Assembly (NCBI GenBank): GCA_017398105.1
Contig: JAFQHF010000078.1
Location: 1 to 25,685 of the forward strand
From: Oscillospiraceae bacterium
GTDB taxonomy: Bacteria > Bacillota_A > Clostridia > Oscillospirales > Oscillospiraceae
Direction of reading: 5' to 3'
DNA: 25,685 bases
Shown here piece by piece: positions 7,831-24,415 of this stretch. Position 1 is the first letter of the stretch. Every line of letters starts with the position of its first letter. Under the pieces are notes generated by a model. It was not told where the DNA came from. It saw only the letters and a list, made by a program, of their open reading frames with translations, and made no database searches. The position numbers and the translations under genes were made by a program.

Positions 7831-8721
7831 ATGAAACGAGTCACCATCCGCGTGCCGGCTACCACGGCCAACCTGGGCCCCGGCTTTGATGCCTTCGGCT
7901 GCGCACTGAGTCTGTATACCGACGTGACCTTTGAGGAAACCGAGTCCGGGTTGGAGATCACCGGCTGCGACGAGGAATATACCGGCCCGGACAATCTGGC
8001 CTATACCTCCTACTGCGCGGTTCTTAGCACCATGAGCGAAGAGATCCGGGGCGTGAAGATCCATATCGATGCCCATATCCCCATCTGCCGGGGCCTGGGC
8101 TCCTCTGCTGCGCTGCTGGTGGCAGGCGCCATGGGCGCCAATGTGCTCCGGGGCAACAAGCTGTCCACCCAGGGTCTTCTGAATATCACCAACGCCATGG
8201 AAGGCCACCCGGACAATCTGGCCCCCGCCTTCTACGGCGGACTGACTGCCTCCATGGTGGACGGCGGTCTTCCTGTATCCGTCAGCTTTCCCCTGCACCC
8301 GGACTGGGAATTTCTGGCCCTGGTTCCGGACTTCGACCTGCCCACCACCCTGGCCCGCTCCGTCCTGCCGGAACAGACCAGCCGGGCGGATGCCATCTAC
8401 AACATCGCCCACGGCGCGCTGGTTCTGAAGGCTCTGGAGCTGGGAGATGAAAAGCTGCTGCGCAATGCCATGCAGGACAAGCTCCACCAGAACTACCGCA
8501 AGAAGCTGATCCCGGACTACGAAAAGATCGAGGCTCTGGTACGGACCACCGGCGCAGCCTTCTGCCTGTCCGGCGCAGGCCCCACCCTGCTGTGCATCAC
8601 CCAGGATCAGAAGCTGGAAGAAAAGCTGGCCCGGAAGCTGGATGCCATCACGGAAAAGAACTGGCAAATGCTGCCGCTTCACGTGGAATTCCAGGGCGCC
8701 CATGTGATCTGCGCGGAATAA
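7831..8721 (+). CDS. thrB: homoserine kinase
   Basis: This GHMP-family kinase transfers phosphate from ATP to L-homoserine, giving the substrate of threonine synthase. The 296-residue length is normal. The start VTIRVPATTANLGPGFDAFG is the family's substrate-side signature. The ATP-binding loop is PICRGLGSSAA (residues 84-94), and the C-terminal glycine loop is CLSGAGPTLLC. The ribosome site (GGGAGAA, 8 bases upstream) is weaker than in neighbouring genes. With asd, lysC, hom and thrC it completes the route from aspartate to threonine in one 6.5-kb region. The gene is separated from thrC by a repeat element, so translation may be independent. Confidence 0.97.
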   Translation: MKRVTIRVPATTANLGPGFDAFGCALSLYTDVTFEETESGLEITGCDEEYTGPDNLAYTSYCAVLSTMSEEIRGVKIHIDAHIPICRGLGSSAALLVAGAMGANVLRGNKLSTQGLLNITNAMEGHPDNLAPAFYGGLTASMVDGGLPVSVSFPLHPDWEFLALVPDFDLPTTLARSVLPEQTSRADAIYNIAHGALVLKALELGDEKLLRNAMQDKLHQNYRKKLIPDYEKIEALVRTTGAAFCLSGAGPTLLCITQDQKLEEKLARKLDAITEKNWQMLPLHVEFQGAHVICAE

Positions 8722-8737
8722 TTGCATACAAAACACT

Positions 8738-8841
8738 TGTAGAGCGGAGGCCTGTCTCCGCCGGTCAGTATAGAAACCCGAGCGTCCGCTATGCCGCTCA
8801 AAATTTCAGACTGTCCGGCGGGAACAAGCCCCCGCCCTACT
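8738..8841. repeat. GTAG..CTAC inverted-repeat element, diverged copy
   Basis: The element starts TGTAGAGCGGAGG and ends with CCCCCGCCCTAC. The ends are imperfect complements, and internal GC hairpins are present (CGGAGG..CTCCGCC). It fills the gap between thrB and the small minus-strand gene; no gene is visible in it. Confidence 0.6.
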
Positions 8842-8848
8842 GTTTCAT

Positions 8849-9028
8849 TCAGAAAACCGCTGTTTCTTCTTCCTCTTTCAGCAATTCCGGATGCTTCAGC
8901 TGAATCCATTCCTTGATGATCTCTTCCGACAGCTGAGAAATGCTCCATTTTTTCTCCGCCGCGACCTGTGCCAGGATGCCTTTGATTTTGATATTGGTCC
9001 TGTATGTAATGTATTCGGTCTTTTTCAT
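8849..9028 (-). CDS. small ribbon-helix-helix-like DNA-binding protein
   Basis: This 59-residue protein starts with a short beta-type stretch (TEYITYRTNIKIK). Two helices follow (GILAQVAAEKKW and SISQLSEEIIKEWIQLK), the layout of MetJ/Arc-type repressors, with a charged Glu-rich tail. Such proteins dimerise and bind short palindromes, often their own promoter. The ATG at 9028 is chosen because GGTGAT lies about 7 bases upstream; an ATG seven codons further out has no ribosome site. Its upstream DNA holds the dyad GTATAC-atg-GTATAC (9042-9056), a plausible self-operator. No toxin or relaxase partner lies beside it. It diverges from the structured RNA gene. The fold call rests on pattern only. 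Confidence 0.65.
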   Translation of the reverse strand: MKKTEYITYRTNIKIKGILAQVAAEKKWSISQLSEEIIKEWIQLKHPELLKEEEETAVF

Positions 9029-9041
9029 TTTTACATCACCC

Positions 9042-9056
9042 GTATACATGGTATAC
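9042..9056. promoter_or_regulatory. GTATAC dyad, candidate operator
   Basis: Two GTATAC hexamers are separated by 3 bp. The dyad lies between the small ribbon-helix-helix gene start and the -35 of the divergent RNA promoter (9065), a position where a repressor could influence both. Confidence 0.4.
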
Positions 9057-9064
9057 CTTTTTAC

Positions 9065-9093
9065 TTGACGAAACCATAATTATCAGATATACT
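9065..9093 (+). promoter_or_regulatory. promoter of the structured RNA
   Basis: -35 TTGACG (9065-9070) and -10 TATACT (9088-9093) are separated by exactly 17 bp. Transcription would begin near 9100. There is no ribosome site or coding frame between here and the terminator at 9320-9355. Confidence 0.75.
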
Positions 9094-9099
9094 AAATAT

Positions 9100-9355
9100 A
9101 CGTAAAAAATGTTGCTTGCCTGTTTCGCAGAGTCCGGCTGTCGGGGTTTCGCTTATGGCGCGGTCATTCTCTCTCCCGGATGACCTGCCGAAGAGGGTCG
9201 GATAAAAAAGATTTCCGGTTGGAGTGCTGTCTTCGGAAGTTGCTGCATTTCGAGCAGGCGGGCGGTTCCCCTCGCCCGTCTCCATTTTAAAGAGAAACAG
9301 GCACATTCTAAGTAGTTACAAAAAAGCTGTTCAGAAAATTCTGAACAGCTTTTTT
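9100..9355 (+). ncRNA. free-standing structured non-coding RNA, class not recognised
   Basis: A consensus promoter and a strong terminator bracket about 250 nt with no credible coding frame. The ends of the inner part pair perfectly: TGCCTGTTTC (9117-9126) with GAAACAGGCA (9294-9303), a 10-bp closing stem. Inside are hairpins GGTCAT/ATGACC (9162-9185), a 7-bp stem of ATTTCCG with CGGAAGT (about 9211-9240), CTGC/GCAG, and GGGCG/CGCCC (about 9260-9278). The next gene downstream runs in the opposite direction, so this is not a riboswitch for it. Size and closed ends recall 6S RNA, but I cannot match the sequence to 6S, SRP, RNase P or tmRNA. The Spo0A/XRE module and other loci are far away and give no clue. 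Confidence 0.65.
9320..9355. terminator. strong bidirectional intrinsic terminator
   Basis: AGCTGTTCAGAA pairs with TTCTGAACAGCT, flanked by A6 on the left and T6 on the right. It ends the structured RNA on the plus strand and the PsiE-like gene on the minus strand. Confidence 0.93.
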
Positions 9356-9376
9356 CATGTGGTATGGAAAAATACG

Positions 9377-9838
9377 TTACTCCACTTCCACCATTTCTTC
9401 CTTCAGCTCACTGCGGCGGATCAGGAAGCGGCGGATGGCAAACAGACCGGCAATACAGCCGATACAGGCCAAATTGCTCCAGGGATCGTCATGGCTCAGG
9501 ACAACGTGACGGGTGATAGCCACAGTCAGAACCTCCAGAATGTTGGCGGGGGTGGTATCGATGAGCATTCGCACAAACTCCAGGCCAACCACGATGGTCA
9601 GCAGATTGTGCAGCATATGGTTCACATCTGCAAAATATTCGCCGCCGCTGGCAATCATATGGTAGATTTCCAGGCTCAATGCACCCAGCAGCGCAATAAT
9701 CGTAAGCACTGCAATGAAACGCTCGATGTAATGCAGGGCCCGGCGAAACAGATGCTCCACCCGGCGATCATGCTTGGTCACCTTCTCAATATACGCCTGA
9801 ATTTTCGGATCATCGGAATGGGGGACATGATTGCTCAC
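9377..9838 (-). CDS. PsiE-like membrane protein
   Basis: This 153-residue protein has about four hydrophobic segments (near residues 38-62, 80-95, 100-115 and 122-136). It carries the phrase VVGLEFVRMLIDTTPANILEV followed by TVAITRHVVLSH, which resembles the phosphate-starvation-inducible PsiE family. The biochemical role of PsiE is unknown. The start is a GTG at 9838, with AGGAGG 8 bases upstream; the next in-frame ATG is far inside. The C-terminus is acidic (LKEEMVEVE). It is transcribed alone and shares the bidirectional terminator with the convergent RNA gene. A small conserved membrane protein of another family cannot be excluded. Confidence 0.7.
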   Translation of the reverse strand: MSNHVPHSDDPKIQAYIEKVTKHDRRVEHLFRRALHYIERFIAVLTIIALLGALSLEIYHMIASGGEYFADVNHMLHNLLTIVVGLEFVRMLIDTTPANILEVLTVAITRHVVLSHDDPWSNLACIGCIAGLFAIRRFLIRRSELKEEMVEVE

Positions 9839-15668: not shown

Positions 15669-16520
15669 TCAGAACCAGTCGCCGTAGCCCAGCTTCACCA
15701 GATTGTCGTGGCTGATCTTCACGGATTCCAGAGGCTTGCGGTCGTAGGTCATGTCCTGCTCGATGAAGAAGAACTCGCAGCCGCAGCGCTTGCCGGCTTC
15801 GATGCACTCGGCAATGGGCAGGGAGCCTTCGCCAACCTCAGCAAATTCCACGATTTCATTCAGATTGTCAGAACCCATACCCAGCTTGGCAAACTTGGGT
15901 CCATTGATGCGGTAGTCCTTCAGGTGCAGCAGGCGGACGCGGCCGTCGAAGCTCTCGATGACCTTGACGGGGTTAAAGCCGCCCCGCTGGAGCCAGTGGA
16001 TGTCCAGCTCAAAGCCATAGTATTCGCCATGATCCTTGAGGATTTCCAGAACAGTCTTGCCATTGTGCATGGACAGCTCAAAGTGGTGGGTATGGAAGTA
16101 CAGGTCGATGCCGTTTTCCTTCAGCTTCTGACCTACCGCGTTGGTCTTGCGTGCGTATTCGGCTGCGGCTTCATAGCTGCCGCAGGCTTCAGCGGATGTG
16201 GAGCCAAGGCGGACCGCCGTGCAGCCCAGAGCCTTGCAGTCGGCTACGATCTTGTCGAAATTGTCCCGCAGATTGTCAAAGAGCGCATCCCACTGGTTGC
16301 CCATGGGCTCTAGCATGGCGCTGATGGCACTGACCTGGATGCCAAAGTCTTCCCTGGCCTTCAGCAGCAGATCGATATTTTCCTGGTTCATCAGAATCTG
16401 GCTGACCTCAATGTGGTGGATGCCAATTTCCGCCACCTGCTTCAATGTCTCATACAGGCCGATCTCGCGAACCGTTGCGGCCACAGTACTCATCTGCAGG
16501 CCGATCTTCGGATTTCCCAT
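15669..16520 (-). CDS. TIM-barrel sugar isomerase/epimerase (AP-endonuclease-2 fold), copy A
   Basis: This 283-residue protein is of the xylose-isomerase-like TIM-barrel superfamily, which includes IolE, IolI and 3-keto-sugar epimerases or eliminases. Metal ligands can be placed at the family positions: Glu in HTHHFELS, Asp in GFELDIHW, His in LLHLKDY, Glu in FFIEQD. It is closely related to the next gene upstream; both end in GYGDWF/GYEDWF. The ATG at 16520 is favoured because GGAG lies about 8 bases upstream; an ATG two codons earlier is too close. A terminator separates it from its paralogue, so it may be partly independent. The reaction (epimerase, isomerase, dehydratase or beta-eliminase) cannot be assigned. 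Confidence 0.88.
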   Translation of the reverse strand: MGNPKIGLQMSTVAATVREIGLYETLKQVAEIGIHHIEVSQILMNQENIDLLLKAREDFGIQVSAISAMLEPMGNQWDALFDNLRDNFDKIVADCKALGCTAVRLGSTSAEACGSYEAAAEYARKTNAVGQKLKENGIDLYFHTHHFELSMHNGKTVLEILKDHGEYYGFELDIHWLQRGGFNPVKVIESFDGRVRLLHLKDYRINGPKFAKLGMGSDNLNEIVEFAEVGEGSLPIAECIEAGKRCGCEFFFIEQDMTYDRKPLESVKISHDNLVKLGYGDWF

Positions 16521-16579
16521 AATCATTCTCCTCTGTAAAAAATGTCAGGCAGGGCAGATCCTGTCCTGCCCGGTGCGGC

Positions 16580-16647: not shown

Positions 16648-17529
16648 TTAGAACCAGTCCTCGTAGCCCAGGGAAACCAGGTGAGCGCGGGAATCCTTCA
16701 GGCAGTCGAAGGGATCGCGGCCGTAGGAGTCGTCCTGCTCGATCAGGAAGTACTCGGCGCCGCCGGCCAGACCAGCCTCGATGCAGGCCTTCAGGGGCAG
16801 GGAGCCTGCGCCCAGCTCAGCAAAGCGGACGGGCTGTGCGAAGAAAGCGTTGGCGAAAGCCTTCATGTCGAAGCCCTTGCTCATATCGGGCATCTCAACG
16901 TTGGCGATCTTGTAGTCCTTCAGGTGCAGCAGACGGACGGAGCCTGCGTACTTCTTGATGAACTCAACGGGGTTCTCGCCGCCGCGGTGGATCCAGTGGG
17001 TATCCAGCTCGAAGCCCATGTGAGGAGCGTTCTCGCGCAGGACGTCCAGCAGGTACTTGCCGTTCTCCAGCTTCATGAACTCGATGTGATGGTTGTGGTA
17101 GTACAGGTCGATGCCGTCTTCCTTCAGCTTCAGGCAGTACTCTTCAGCTTCCTTAGCGAAGTCGATGCACTTCTGCACATTGCCGATGGCGTTCATGGGC
17201 ATCATGCCGATCCGGAACATATCGCAGTTCAGGGTGCGGGCATCGTCGATGTACTTCTTGTAGTCATCGGGATTGCTCAGGTATTCGCCGGGCATGCCGG
17301 GAACCATGGGGGAGATGGAAGCGGTCAGGGAGGAGATGTTGAAGTTCAGCTCGTCGATGGCCTTACGGAAGCCGGCAACGTTTTCCTTGGTCATGGGGAC
17401 CTGGGAAACTTCTGCGCAGTGGAAGCCGATGTCGGTCAGCTTGCCCATAACCTCGAAGGGCTCAAAGCTGGGCATCTTGGCAGGGGCGATGGTGGACATC
17501 TGAACGCCGATCAAACCTTTTTTGCTCAT
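16648..17529 (-). CDS. TIM-barrel sugar isomerase/epimerase (AP-endonuclease-2 fold), copy B
   Basis: This 293-residue protein is a paralogue of the adjacent copy A. Shared stretches include IGVQMST, AEVSQ, GIDLYYHNHHIEF, GFELDTHWIHRGGENPV, VRLLHLKDY, GSLPLKACIEAG, FLIEQD and the C-terminal GYEDWF. The four metal-binding positions are intact. It differs from copy A by an insertion after HLKDY (MPDMSKGFDMKAFANAFF), near the mouth of the barrel where substrate binding would occur, which suggests a different substrate or step. AAGGAG lies about 9 bases before the ATG. A strong terminator follows. It sits downstream of the Gfo/Idh/MocA pair, whose product it may process. Confidence 0.88.
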   Translation of the reverse strand: MSKKGLIGVQMSTIAPAKMPSFEPFEVMGKLTDIGFHCAEVSQVPMTKENVAGFRKAIDELNFNISSLTASISPMVPGMPGEYLSNPDDYKKYIDDARTLNCDMFRIGMMPMNAIGNVQKCIDFAKEAEEYCLKLKEDGIDLYYHNHHIEFMKLENGKYLLDVLRENAPHMGFELDTHWIHRGGENPVEFIKKYAGSVRLLHLKDYKIANVEMPDMSKGFDMKAFANAFFAQPVRFAELGAGSLPLKACIEAGLAGGAEYFLIEQDDSYGRDPFDCLKDSRAHLVSLGYEDWF

Positions 17530-20247: not shown

Positions 20248-21120
20248 TTAGATAGCCTTCAGAACCTCGCACAGGGCGTTGTACTGCATGGCGTAGCCTT
20301 CAGCACCGTCCTTGGCCTTGTTCTCGGAGATGACCTCGGTAGCGTCCACAACTTCCAGGCTCTGCAGAGTTGCGAACAGAACCAGGTGGGGCTCCAGGGT
20401 CAGGAAGCCTTCGTAGCCGTCTTCACGGATGGCCTTCTTCAGGATTTCGGGAATCTTGCCGTCGCCGGTGGCGCAGACAACGTTCTCGTTCTTGCCGGCC
20501 ACTGCATCCTTGATGTGGATGTAGGCAACGTGCTCCTTCAGCAGCTCCCAGCACTCGACGGTGTTCTCGCCGCACTGCACGAAGTTAGCGAAGTCGAAAG
20601 CAGCCTTGAAGTTGGGGGAAGCCAGCTCATCCAGGATGACCTTGCAGCGGGAGCCGATGTCGCCGTAGATGTCCTTCTCGTTCTCGTGGATCAGAACAAC
20701 ACCGTACTTGGCAGCGATGTCAGCGAAGCCGCGCAGCTTCTTCAGGACTTCGTCCTTCCACTCATCAGGGTTCTTGTTCAGCATCCAGAAGCTGAACATA
20801 CGGATGTACTTGCAGTCCACCAGGTTGCAGATCTGGCACAGGGTATCCAGCTGAGCCAGCTGCTTTTCGTAAGCGGCCTCATCATCGATGTCGATCTTGC
20901 CGATGGGGCTGCCCAGAGAGGAGACCTTGACGCCGGCGGCATTCAGCCGGGGCAGGATGCTCTCCTTAAACTCTTCTACGGTGTAATCTGCAATGCCCTT
21001 GCCGTCAGCGGCGCGCAGGCAGATGTACTCCATACCCAGTTCCTTGACAACCTTCAGCTGAACGTCCAGCTGGGGATCGATCTCATCGGCAAAGCCGGAG
21101 ATAATGATTTTCTCAACCAT
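20248..21120 (-). CDS. TIM-barrel sugar isomerase/epimerase (AP-endonuclease-2 fold), copy C
   Basis: This 290-residue protein is a third xylose-isomerase-like TIM-barrel protein, only distantly related to copies A and B. Family-type ligand positions are Glu in VVLIHENEKD, Asp in FKAAFDFANF, His in AYIHIKDA, and Glu in FLTLEPHL. Its start IISGFADEIDPQLDVQLKVVKELGMEYICLR is typical of sugar phosphate isomerase/epimerase annotations. AAGGAG lies about 9 bases before the ATG. It is the first gene behind the promoter region shared with the AraC-type regulator, so it is probably the most directly controlled gene of the locus. Confidence 0.88.
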   Translation of the reverse strand: MVEKIIISGFADEIDPQLDVQLKVVKELGMEYICLRAADGKGIADYTVEEFKESILPRLNAAGVKVSSLGSPIGKIDIDDEAAYEKQLAQLDTLCQICNLVDCKYIRMFSFWMLNKNPDEWKDEVLKKLRGFADIAAKYGVVLIHENEKDIYGDIGSRCKVILDELASPNFKAAFDFANFVQCGENTVECWELLKEHVAYIHIKDAVAGKNENVVCATGDGKIPEILKKAIREDGYEGFLTLEPHLVLFATLQSLEVVDATEVISENKAKDGAEGYAMQYNALCEVLKAI

Positions 21121-22577: not shown

Positions 22578-23063
22578 TTACTGCCCCTCCCGCAGTCTCT
22601 GTTTGACGATGTTGGCCAGCCGCGCGATGAATTCGCCGTTGGTGGGCTTGCCCTTTTCCGGGTGGACGATGGAGCCGAAATAGTGGTTCAGGATATCCAG
22701 ATCCCCCCGGGTCCAGGTCACCTCGATCAGGTGACGGATGGCCCGCTCCACCCGGCTGGCAGTGGTATCGAACTGGGCTGCCAGCTGGGGATACAGCCGG
22801 AAGGTGATCTGATCGATGAACACCCGGTCCTGAATCACCAGCAGCACCGCCTGCACTGCATAGGGGTGGCCCAGCAGATGATCCGGCGCCCCCAGCTCCA
22901 GTAGAATCTGGCGGATCTGGTATTCCGGGTCCAGAAACGCCCCCCGGGAAGGCCGCCCCTGAAGCAGATACCGGATCTCCTCCCGTGCCTTTTTCTTCGT
23001 CTCCTCGTCGCAGGCGGTACACAGCCGCATCAGCGCATCAACCTGTTTTTCCAATGGTGTCAT
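22578..23063 (-). CDS. stand-alone Spo0A C-terminal (DNA-binding) domain protein
   Basis: This 161-residue protein has the Spo0A effector domain over residues about 50-158. It starts at IRQILLELGAPDHLLGHPY. The recognition helix is TASRVERAIRHLIEVTW (101-117), followed by GDLDILNHYFG and KPTNGEFIA, close to the Spo0A sequence as known. The receiver domain with its phosphorylated aspartate is missing. In its place is a short charged helical N-terminus (TPLEKQVDALMRLCTACDEETKKKAREEI). It should therefore bind DNA without phosphorelay control, or antagonise genuine Spo0A at 0A boxes. AAGGAGG lies about 8 bases before the ATG at 23063. The frame continues upstream to a TTG but without a ribosome site. 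It faces the XRE/ImmA pair across a shared operator region. Confidence 0.9.
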   Translation of the reverse strand: MTPLEKQVDALMRLCTACDEETKKKAREEIRYLLQGRPSRGAFLDPEYQIRQILLELGAPDHLLGHPYAVQAVLLVIQDRVFIDQITFRLYPQLAAQFDTTASRVERAIRHLIEVTWTRGDLDILNHYFGSIVHPEKGKPTNGEFIARLANIVKQRLREGQ

Positions 23064-23204
23064 ATGCAAAATCCTCCTTGAGATAAAATTACGAAGCGTT
23101 ATGTCCAATAAAGCGGACGGTATTTGTGATATCGTAACGGTACTGTACAGAGCCTCCTCCGTCCGGGCGGCTGCCCCCTTCGGGGAATATTTCCTGCCGT
23201 ATAG

Positions 23205-23233
23205 TTGACTTAAGTAATCTGGTATGCTATAAT
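23205..23233 (+). promoter_or_regulatory. promoter reading toward the XRE/ImmA genes
   Basis: -35 TTGACT (23205-23210) and a perfect -10 TATAAT (23228-23233) are 17 bp apart. The first ACTTAAGT operator (23208-23215) overlaps the -35. The leader to the XRE start is about 145 nt. Confidence 0.75.
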
Positions 23234-23238
23234 ACCAT

Positions 23239-23245
23239 TGTCGAA
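23239..23245. promoter_or_regulatory. TGTCGAA, candidate Spo0A box
   Basis: A perfect match to the 0A-box core lies at the expected transcription start of the XRE/ImmA promoter. The same heptamer also occurs at 209-215 and 1054-1060, so a single match is weak evidence. Confidence 0.35.
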
Positions 23246-23293
23246 AGATGAAAAACAATCGAGATAGATTACTTAAGTAGCTCGTTTGTTCGC

Positions 23294-23737: not shown

Positions 23738-24166
23738 ATGGAAATCCAGAACCTCTATGCCCTGGCAAGACAACAGAATATAGAGGTATTCCCCTTTCCC
23801 CTGCCCCAGACCGGCTCCATGTCCATCATGGAAGACAGCGGTGCCTGCTGCATCGCCATGGATGATGCCGTCCTGGACGGGGCCGTCCGGGAGCGGGTGC
23901 ACCTGAGCCACGAGCTGGGCCACTGCATCACCGGCAGCTTCTACAACCGCTACGCCGCCGTCGACTGCCGCCAAAGGCATGAAAACAAGGCCAACAAATG
24001 GGCTATCGAAGCCCTGATCCCGGTGGATGAGCTGGATGAAGCCATCGCCGACGGCTGCACCGAGGTCTGGGAGCTGGCAGACCGGTTCCAGGTGACGGAG
24101 GATTTCATCCGCAAAGCCGTATGCTACTACGTCCACGGCAACCTGGCGGATGAATTGTATTTTTAA
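23738..24166 (+). CDS. ImmA/IrrE-family metallopeptidase
   Basis: This 142-residue zinc metallopeptidase has the HEXXH motif HLSHELGHC (His58, Glu59, His62). The downstream helix RHENKANKWAIEALIPVDEL supplies the probable third ligand Glu82 and the family-typical A-N-x-x-A-x-x-x-L-I-P pattern. ImmA-type enzymes cut the repressor encoded beside them after a cell signal. The start codon lies 2 bp after the XRE stop, with AAGGAG inside the XRE gene end, so the two are translationally linked. The C-terminal half (EVWELADRFQVTEDFIRKAVCYYVHG) is the usual short helical tail. No integrase, excisionase or conjugation genes are in view, so this pair may be a domesticated or remnant switch. Confidence 0.92.
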   Translation: MEIQNLYALARQQNIEVFPFPLPQTGSMSIMEDSGACCIAMDDAVLDGAVRERVHLSHELGHCITGSFYNRYAAVDCRQRHENKANKWAIEALIPVDELDEAIADGCTEVWELADRFQVTEDFIRKAVCYYVHGNLADELYF

Positions 24167-24394
24167 TGCGTGTTCGGCGCTGTGCAATTCGATACTGCCC
24201 AAACCCGCTCGGTATCGTTCCCGGCACAAAGTCTCAAACCATTTTTCGTGCGTGTTCGGTGCTGTGCAGTTCGGTACTGCCCAAACCCGCTCGGTATCGT
24301 TCCCGGCACAAAGTCTCAAACCATTTTTCGTGCGTGTTCGGTGCTGTGCAGCTCGATACTGCCCCAACCCGCCCGGTATCGTTTCTGCCGCAAA
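24167..24394. repeat. 82-bp tandem direct repeat, about 2.7 copies
   Basis: Copies start at 24167, 24249 and 24331; each begins TGCGTGTTCGG. The first two are nearly identical (three or so changes). The third is shortened and more diverged (CCCCAACCCGCCCGG). Each unit contains an inverted word pair GATAC/GTATC around the sequence TGCCCAAACCCGCTCG. The first copy begins at the base after the immA stop codon. The 82-bp period is not a multiple of three, so the apparent reading frames in it are not a repeat protein. It is not a CRISPR array: units are contiguous without spacers. Confidence 0.88.
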
Positions 24395-24415
24395 TGATCA
24401 CCATTGACGCACCAA

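Follow-up and report, generated by a model that had tools for sequence, protein, structure and literature searches.

Genomic context of the segment

The segment studied here sits in the gap (8722-9376) between the genes for a homoserine kinase and a psiE-like protein. The window, that is, the whole stretch of 25,685 nucleotides analysed, is probably chromosomal, as threonine-pathway genes adjoin this site. The features of the locus are as follows.

7831-8721, plus strand: homoserine kinase gene
8849-9028, minus strand: candidate ribbon-helix-helix (RHH; CopG/Arc-like) protein of 59 residues, likely repressor of divergent promoters; aligned with 8 relatives
9042-9056, strand not applicable: operator O1, palindrome GTATACATGGTATAC
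9065-9093, plus strand: promoter TTGACG-17-TATACT, 10 of 12 consensus positions
9087-9101, strand not applicable: putative second operator O2 (ATATACTAAATATAC), overlapping the -10 box; 12 of 13 pattern positions
9100-9355, plus strand: proposed RNA; start near 9100 inferred from the -10 box, end from the terminator
9117-9126, plus strand: predicted closing stem, 5' arm
9132-9203, plus strand: predicted long hairpin arm (helices 9132-9142/9193-9203 and 9157-9169/9178-9189), with the C-rich loop UCUCUCCC at 9170-9177
9210-9241, plus strand: predicted third hairpin
9256-9281, plus strand: predicted G+C-rich hairpin, with the C-rich apical loop UUCCCC at 9266-9271
9294-9303, plus strand: predicted closing stem, 3' arm
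9320-9355: perfect two-way terminator common to the proposed RNA and the psiE-like gene; 17-bp stem 9320-9336/9339-9355
9838-9377, minus strand: psiE-like gene, ending at 9377

The loci compared were those around the homoserine kinase gene, taken as the best 80 of 99. Among these 80, the nearest relatives, whose homoserine kinases are 79-96% identical to that of the window, belong to Oscillospiraceae metagenome genomes, several of them Candidatus Faecousia. A narrow literature search combining "Faecousia" with small RNA returned no paper, which does not show that nothing is in print. A psiE match was found in 20 of the 80 loci; one of these (L011) has psiE elsewhere, leaving 19 loci in which the gap ranges from 45 to 2898 bases. 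The site therefore tolerates turnover.

The promoter belongs to a probable RHH-repressor module

The consensus promoter and the strong bidirectional terminator of the original prediction were both recovered. What is new is the membership of this promoter in a probable RHH-repressor module, consisting of the RHH gene, a palindromic operator and the divergent promoter. The module occurs, patchily, in 17 of 136 genomes of the genus (loci L087-L103), and it lies inside the gap between homoserine kinase and psiE in L002 and L057. The RHH protein was found in three of 380 family genomes, two of which (G002 and G019) were already among the known ones, the third being G328. It had no match among plasmids and phages, and a search of viral contigs with the pattern of its alignment gave 36 pattern matches and no relatives.

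At least 13 of the 14 positions of the operator pattern GTATACATNGTATAC agree in the window, as they do in 15 of the 17 relatives, the exceptions being L098 and L100. For the window and for each of the 15 matching relatives, this score was reached by none of 200 base shuffles. An exact TTGAC is present in the corresponding stretch of 13 of the 17 relatives. In 16 of them a palindrome resembling O2 (at least 11 of 13 positions) is found on or close to the -10 box, at another offset in some, a count made without a shuffle control.

The 59-residue protein is likely an RHH repressor of the CopG/Arc type. Its structural model has two helices (mean pLDDT 79, pTM 0.53), the strand segment not being seen in the monomer. 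The best Foldseek matches were CopASO, Arc, SvtR, ORF56 and CopG, none at E <= 0.001; by sequence the protein reached 2k9i at E 0.63 only, and no Pfam match exceeded the cut-off. As in the modules of CopG, Arc and the antitoxin CopASO, a small candidate regulator, two-helical in the model, is encoded next to a palindromic operator and a promoter that points the other way; the window differs from these in having no protein gene behind that promoter. The promoter is thus conserved and probably held down by the RHH protein; its product in the relatives is a protein.

The folded segment occupies the place of an acidic-protein gene

In 14 of the 17 module genomes, the same divergent promoter leads into a gene for an acidic protein of about 85 residues. 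As regards the other three, the gene is absent from L094, which keeps the RHH gene, operator and promoter; the contig of L099 ends 75 bases on; and L100 has a different region. One member of the acidic protein family gave no match in NCBIfam, and one of four members gave a sub-cut-off match to DUF6809 in Pfam, with nothing else found there. Neither the RHH regulator nor the acidic protein (one member of each) matched anything in PADLOC.

The acidic-protein gene is missing from the window without a convincing trace, and the folded segment occupies its place. Indeed, no trace of it was detected in the window by tblastn, nor by a DNA profile of the gene. A decayed copy was considered on the basis of a profile match in one forward frame (E 0.022) and was rejected, as 62 of 300 shuffles equalled its score in a frameshift-tolerant comparison. 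Since the same promoter drives a protein gene in 14 of the 17 relatives, its presence does not in itself argue for an RNA gene.

Predicted fold of the segment

Positions 9117-9303 fold to a predicted -77.8 kcal/mol, as a multibranched junction closed by a 10-bp stem. The perfect closing stem of the original prediction (9117-9126/9294-9303) is thus reproduced, as are its four or more internal hairpins, of which the minimum-energy fold contains five and the centroid four. Base-pair probabilities are about 0.7-1.0 in the main helices and 0.59 in the short helix 9242-9244/9253-9255.

This fold beats nearly all shuffled sequences. Out of 2000 dinucleotide shuffles, 10 reached its energy, 7 had a closing stem of at least 10 bp, and none combined the energy with a closing stem of at least 8 bp. 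The z-score of 9117-9303 is -2.8 to -3.1 on the plus strand and -1.2 on the minus strand, an asymmetry that does not resemble a simple DNA palindrome, and 14 of the 62 pairs are G-U on the plus strand. The minus strand nevertheless folds too, with a 9-bp closing helix. Much of the signal of the longer segment comes from the terminator, since z weakens from -5.8 with it (9100-9360) to -2.9 without it (9100-9310). Real DNA sets a lower bar: a helix of at least 10 bp closing at least three hairpins was found in 130 of 6000 strands from the 80 related loci. Among pieces with no open frame of 60 codons, a group that does not include the target itself, it was found in 8 of 238. Within the window, at least 25 of 340 strands have z <= -3.5, several of them overlapping REP-like repeats. 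The predicted structure is therefore better than chance, by a margin that is not wide.

The predicted fold presents two C-rich (UCCC/CCCC) apical loops, at 9170-9177 and 9266-9271. Two or more such loops together turned up once among 2000 shuffles and 37 times among 6000 genomic strands, for a motif that was picked after the fold was seen. Passages in two publications describe UCCC loops as target sites of Gram-positive small RNAs (PMC3861533, PMC4132741). Loop one could pair with a GGGAGA preceding the start in two of 18 genes of the window, those for the homoserine kinase and a CBS-domain protein, at -9.9 and -9.7 kcal/mol. This is no more than a lead: these energies come without a control, several start sites were guessed, and the window holds 16 copies of GGGAGA, both strands counted. 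Loop two could instead pair within the molecule, with 9140-9156 (-7.9 kcal/mol).

No known RNA class and no relative

As the original prediction had suggested, the DNA was searched against Rfam. Rfam 15 at gathering thresholds gave no match anywhere in the window (SRP RNA, RNase P RNA, tmRNA, raiA and others), and ARAGORN found no tRNA or tmRNA there, in agreement with the earlier statement that the signatures of SRP RNA, RNase P RNA and tmRNA were not recognised. Up to E = 10, eleven weak matches were obtained in 9050-9380, none relevant and all far below the gathering score, most of them falling on the terminator palindrome.

The suggestion of a diverged 6S RNA found no support, and we consider a diverged member of this or another known class extremely improbable. 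The segment resembles 6S RNA (RF00013) in length and in having a long closing stem. It differs from it in its predicted fold, a multibranched junction instead of one long hairpin with a central bubble, and 6S RNA was matched neither in the window at the gathering score nor in 9050-9380 up to E = 10. Moreover, of 41 genus genomes, 38 carry a recognisable 6S RNA at E <= 0.001, and in 26 it exceeds the cut-off, which makes a diverged 6S RNA unlikely here.

The original prediction had also stated that the segment holds no credible coding frame. That statement needs correcting, as an uninterrupted ATG frame of 81 codons (9306-9061, minus strand) spans the whole segment. A word-based search found no homologue of this frame, neither NCBIfam nor Pfam gave a match, and no ribosome-binding site was seen by eye; a protein of 81 residues encoded there would also reach into the RHH module's promoter region. 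We regard such a protein gene as scarcely credible.

Relatives were sought in 136 genomes of the genus, 400 of the family and 345 of the order; these sets overlap, and the host species is not among them. Whole-genome blastn of the segment gave short matches in 3, 1 and 1 genomes of these sets, respectively. When the 80 homoserine-kinase loci were compared with the query 9050-9360, L002 alone matched, over the first 51 bases, which hold the operator and promoter; a comparison of 19 genomes with 9050-9320 returned the L002 promoter plus one 26-base match. Blastn candidates were scored up to two per genome in the family and order sets and up to five in the genus set, so that a weak relative may have escaped notice.

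The earlier proposal to build a covariance model from relatives found no relatives to build on among the 136 genus and 400 family genomes, and the model used (R1) was built from the single window sequence given twice. At E <= 1 it matched in two of the 136 genomes of the genus. In the family set, with stricter filters and up to six candidates scored, three of the 400 genomes gave a match at E <= 0.1 (best E 2.1e-4, in one genome). In the 80 homoserine-kinase loci it gave six matches at E <= 5, those inspected being in L045. Eleven loci with weak matches were inspected; each match lay for more than 60% of its length inside a frame free of stops for 100 codons or more, and they were therefore rejected as chance.

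Thus, neither blastn in the genus, family and order genomes nor the covariance model in the genus and family genomes yielded a credible relative of the segment. Blastn of 8800-9400 against plasmids and phages, blastn of 9100-9320 against E. coli, and exact patterns of 18-20 bases against viral contigs gave no match. No second copy was found in the window, where the other matches had at most 7.6 bits. As for the RNA gene of unrecognised class originally proposed, the segment is structured by prediction, apparently non-coding and without an Rfam match, and the claim of a new class is unsupported because no relative was found and there is hence no covariation.

A possible orphan small RNA and alternative explanations

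We propose, with a probability of roughly 40%, that the segment specifies a small regulatory RNA, orphan and possibly young, which is under RHH-repressor control and would most likely act as an antisense RNA through its C-rich loops. An RNA of about 200-255 nt would be transcribed from the divergent promoter of the module and would stand where the relatives carry the small acidic-protein gene. Binding of the RHH repressor to O1 and to the palindrome over the -10 box would probably hold this RNA down. Its likeliest action would be for the two C-rich apical loops to pair with G-rich Shine-Dalgarno sequences and so block translation of target mRNAs. The proposed RNA would thereby resemble the UCCC-loop small RNAs of Gram-positive bacteria (the Staphylococcus aureus Rsa family and RNAIII, and Listeria LhrC) in being free-standing and structured and in having C-rich apical loops that could reach Shine-Dalgarno sequences (PMC3861533, PMC4132741). 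It differs from them in having no sequence relative or Rfam match and in its predicted long multibranched closing stem.

We rate equally the explanation that the segment is a functionless transcript or filler: the protein gene would have been deleted or replaced, the conserved promoter would still fire, and the fold would be a chance product of a repeat-rich genome. The segment's lack of conservation in the genus, family and order genomes searched is what this explanation expects, and L094 likewise keeps the RHH gene, operator and promoter without the protein gene. The variable gap between homoserine kinase and psiE and the abundance of strong folds in the window and related loci point the same way. 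Filler accounts less readily for the combination of energy and closing stem, matched by no shuffle, for the strand asymmetry, and for the lack of any protein-gene remnant beyond a match that shuffles equal. The first two of these observations argue for the small RNA, as do the conserved operator and promoter of the module, its recurrence in the genus with the protein gene in 14 of 17 cases, the G-U pairs of the plus strand, the rarity of two C-rich loops and the precedent of UCCC loops as target sites. Weighing against the small RNA are the want of any relative and hence of covariation, the post hoc choice of the loop motif, the possible internal pairing of loop two, and the folding of the minus strand; comparable closing stems in genomic strands and z values near -3 in the window are not rare, and the promoter evolved together with a protein gene. 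A small non-autonomous mobile element of the MITE type, inserted behind the promoter and bounded by 10-bp terminal inverted repeats, is very unlikely: the inverted repeat at the ends (an equally distant 10-bp repeat arose in 7 of 2000 shuffles) and the variable site would suit it, yet there is no second copy in the window or in the genus, family and order genomes searched, no target-site duplication was seen by eye, and the fold is strand-asymmetric.

If the proposed small RNA is transcribed and functional, the locus would offer a traceable case of small RNA gene birth, as relatives that have kept the protein gene allow the history of the promoter and operator to be followed. A more specific scenario, which we consider rather unlikely, is birth by promoter takeover, an RNA with C-rich loops having replaced the protein cargo of the RHH module while the operator was kept, so that the output changed from protein to antisense RNA. 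If the segment is filler, it would serve as a warning that a good promoter, terminator and fold alone do not make an RNA gene.

Other features of the window

The REP-like palindromic repeats of the window are centred around GGCGGGGTCATGACCCCGCC and number nine copies between 4672 and 22396, which are 64-100% identical to the reference. At 24159-24404 an 82-base unit is repeated three times in tandem; compared with the first copy, identity is 94% for the second and 78% for the third. A protein with a Spo0A C-terminal domain (E 9.8e-34) is encoded at 22578-23258 on the minus strand. Three genes for xylose-isomerase-like TIM-barrel proteins (15669-16526, 16648-17529 and 20248-21120, minus strand) are found near a GFO/IDH/MocA oxidoreductase gene, and the first two of them have repeats in common.
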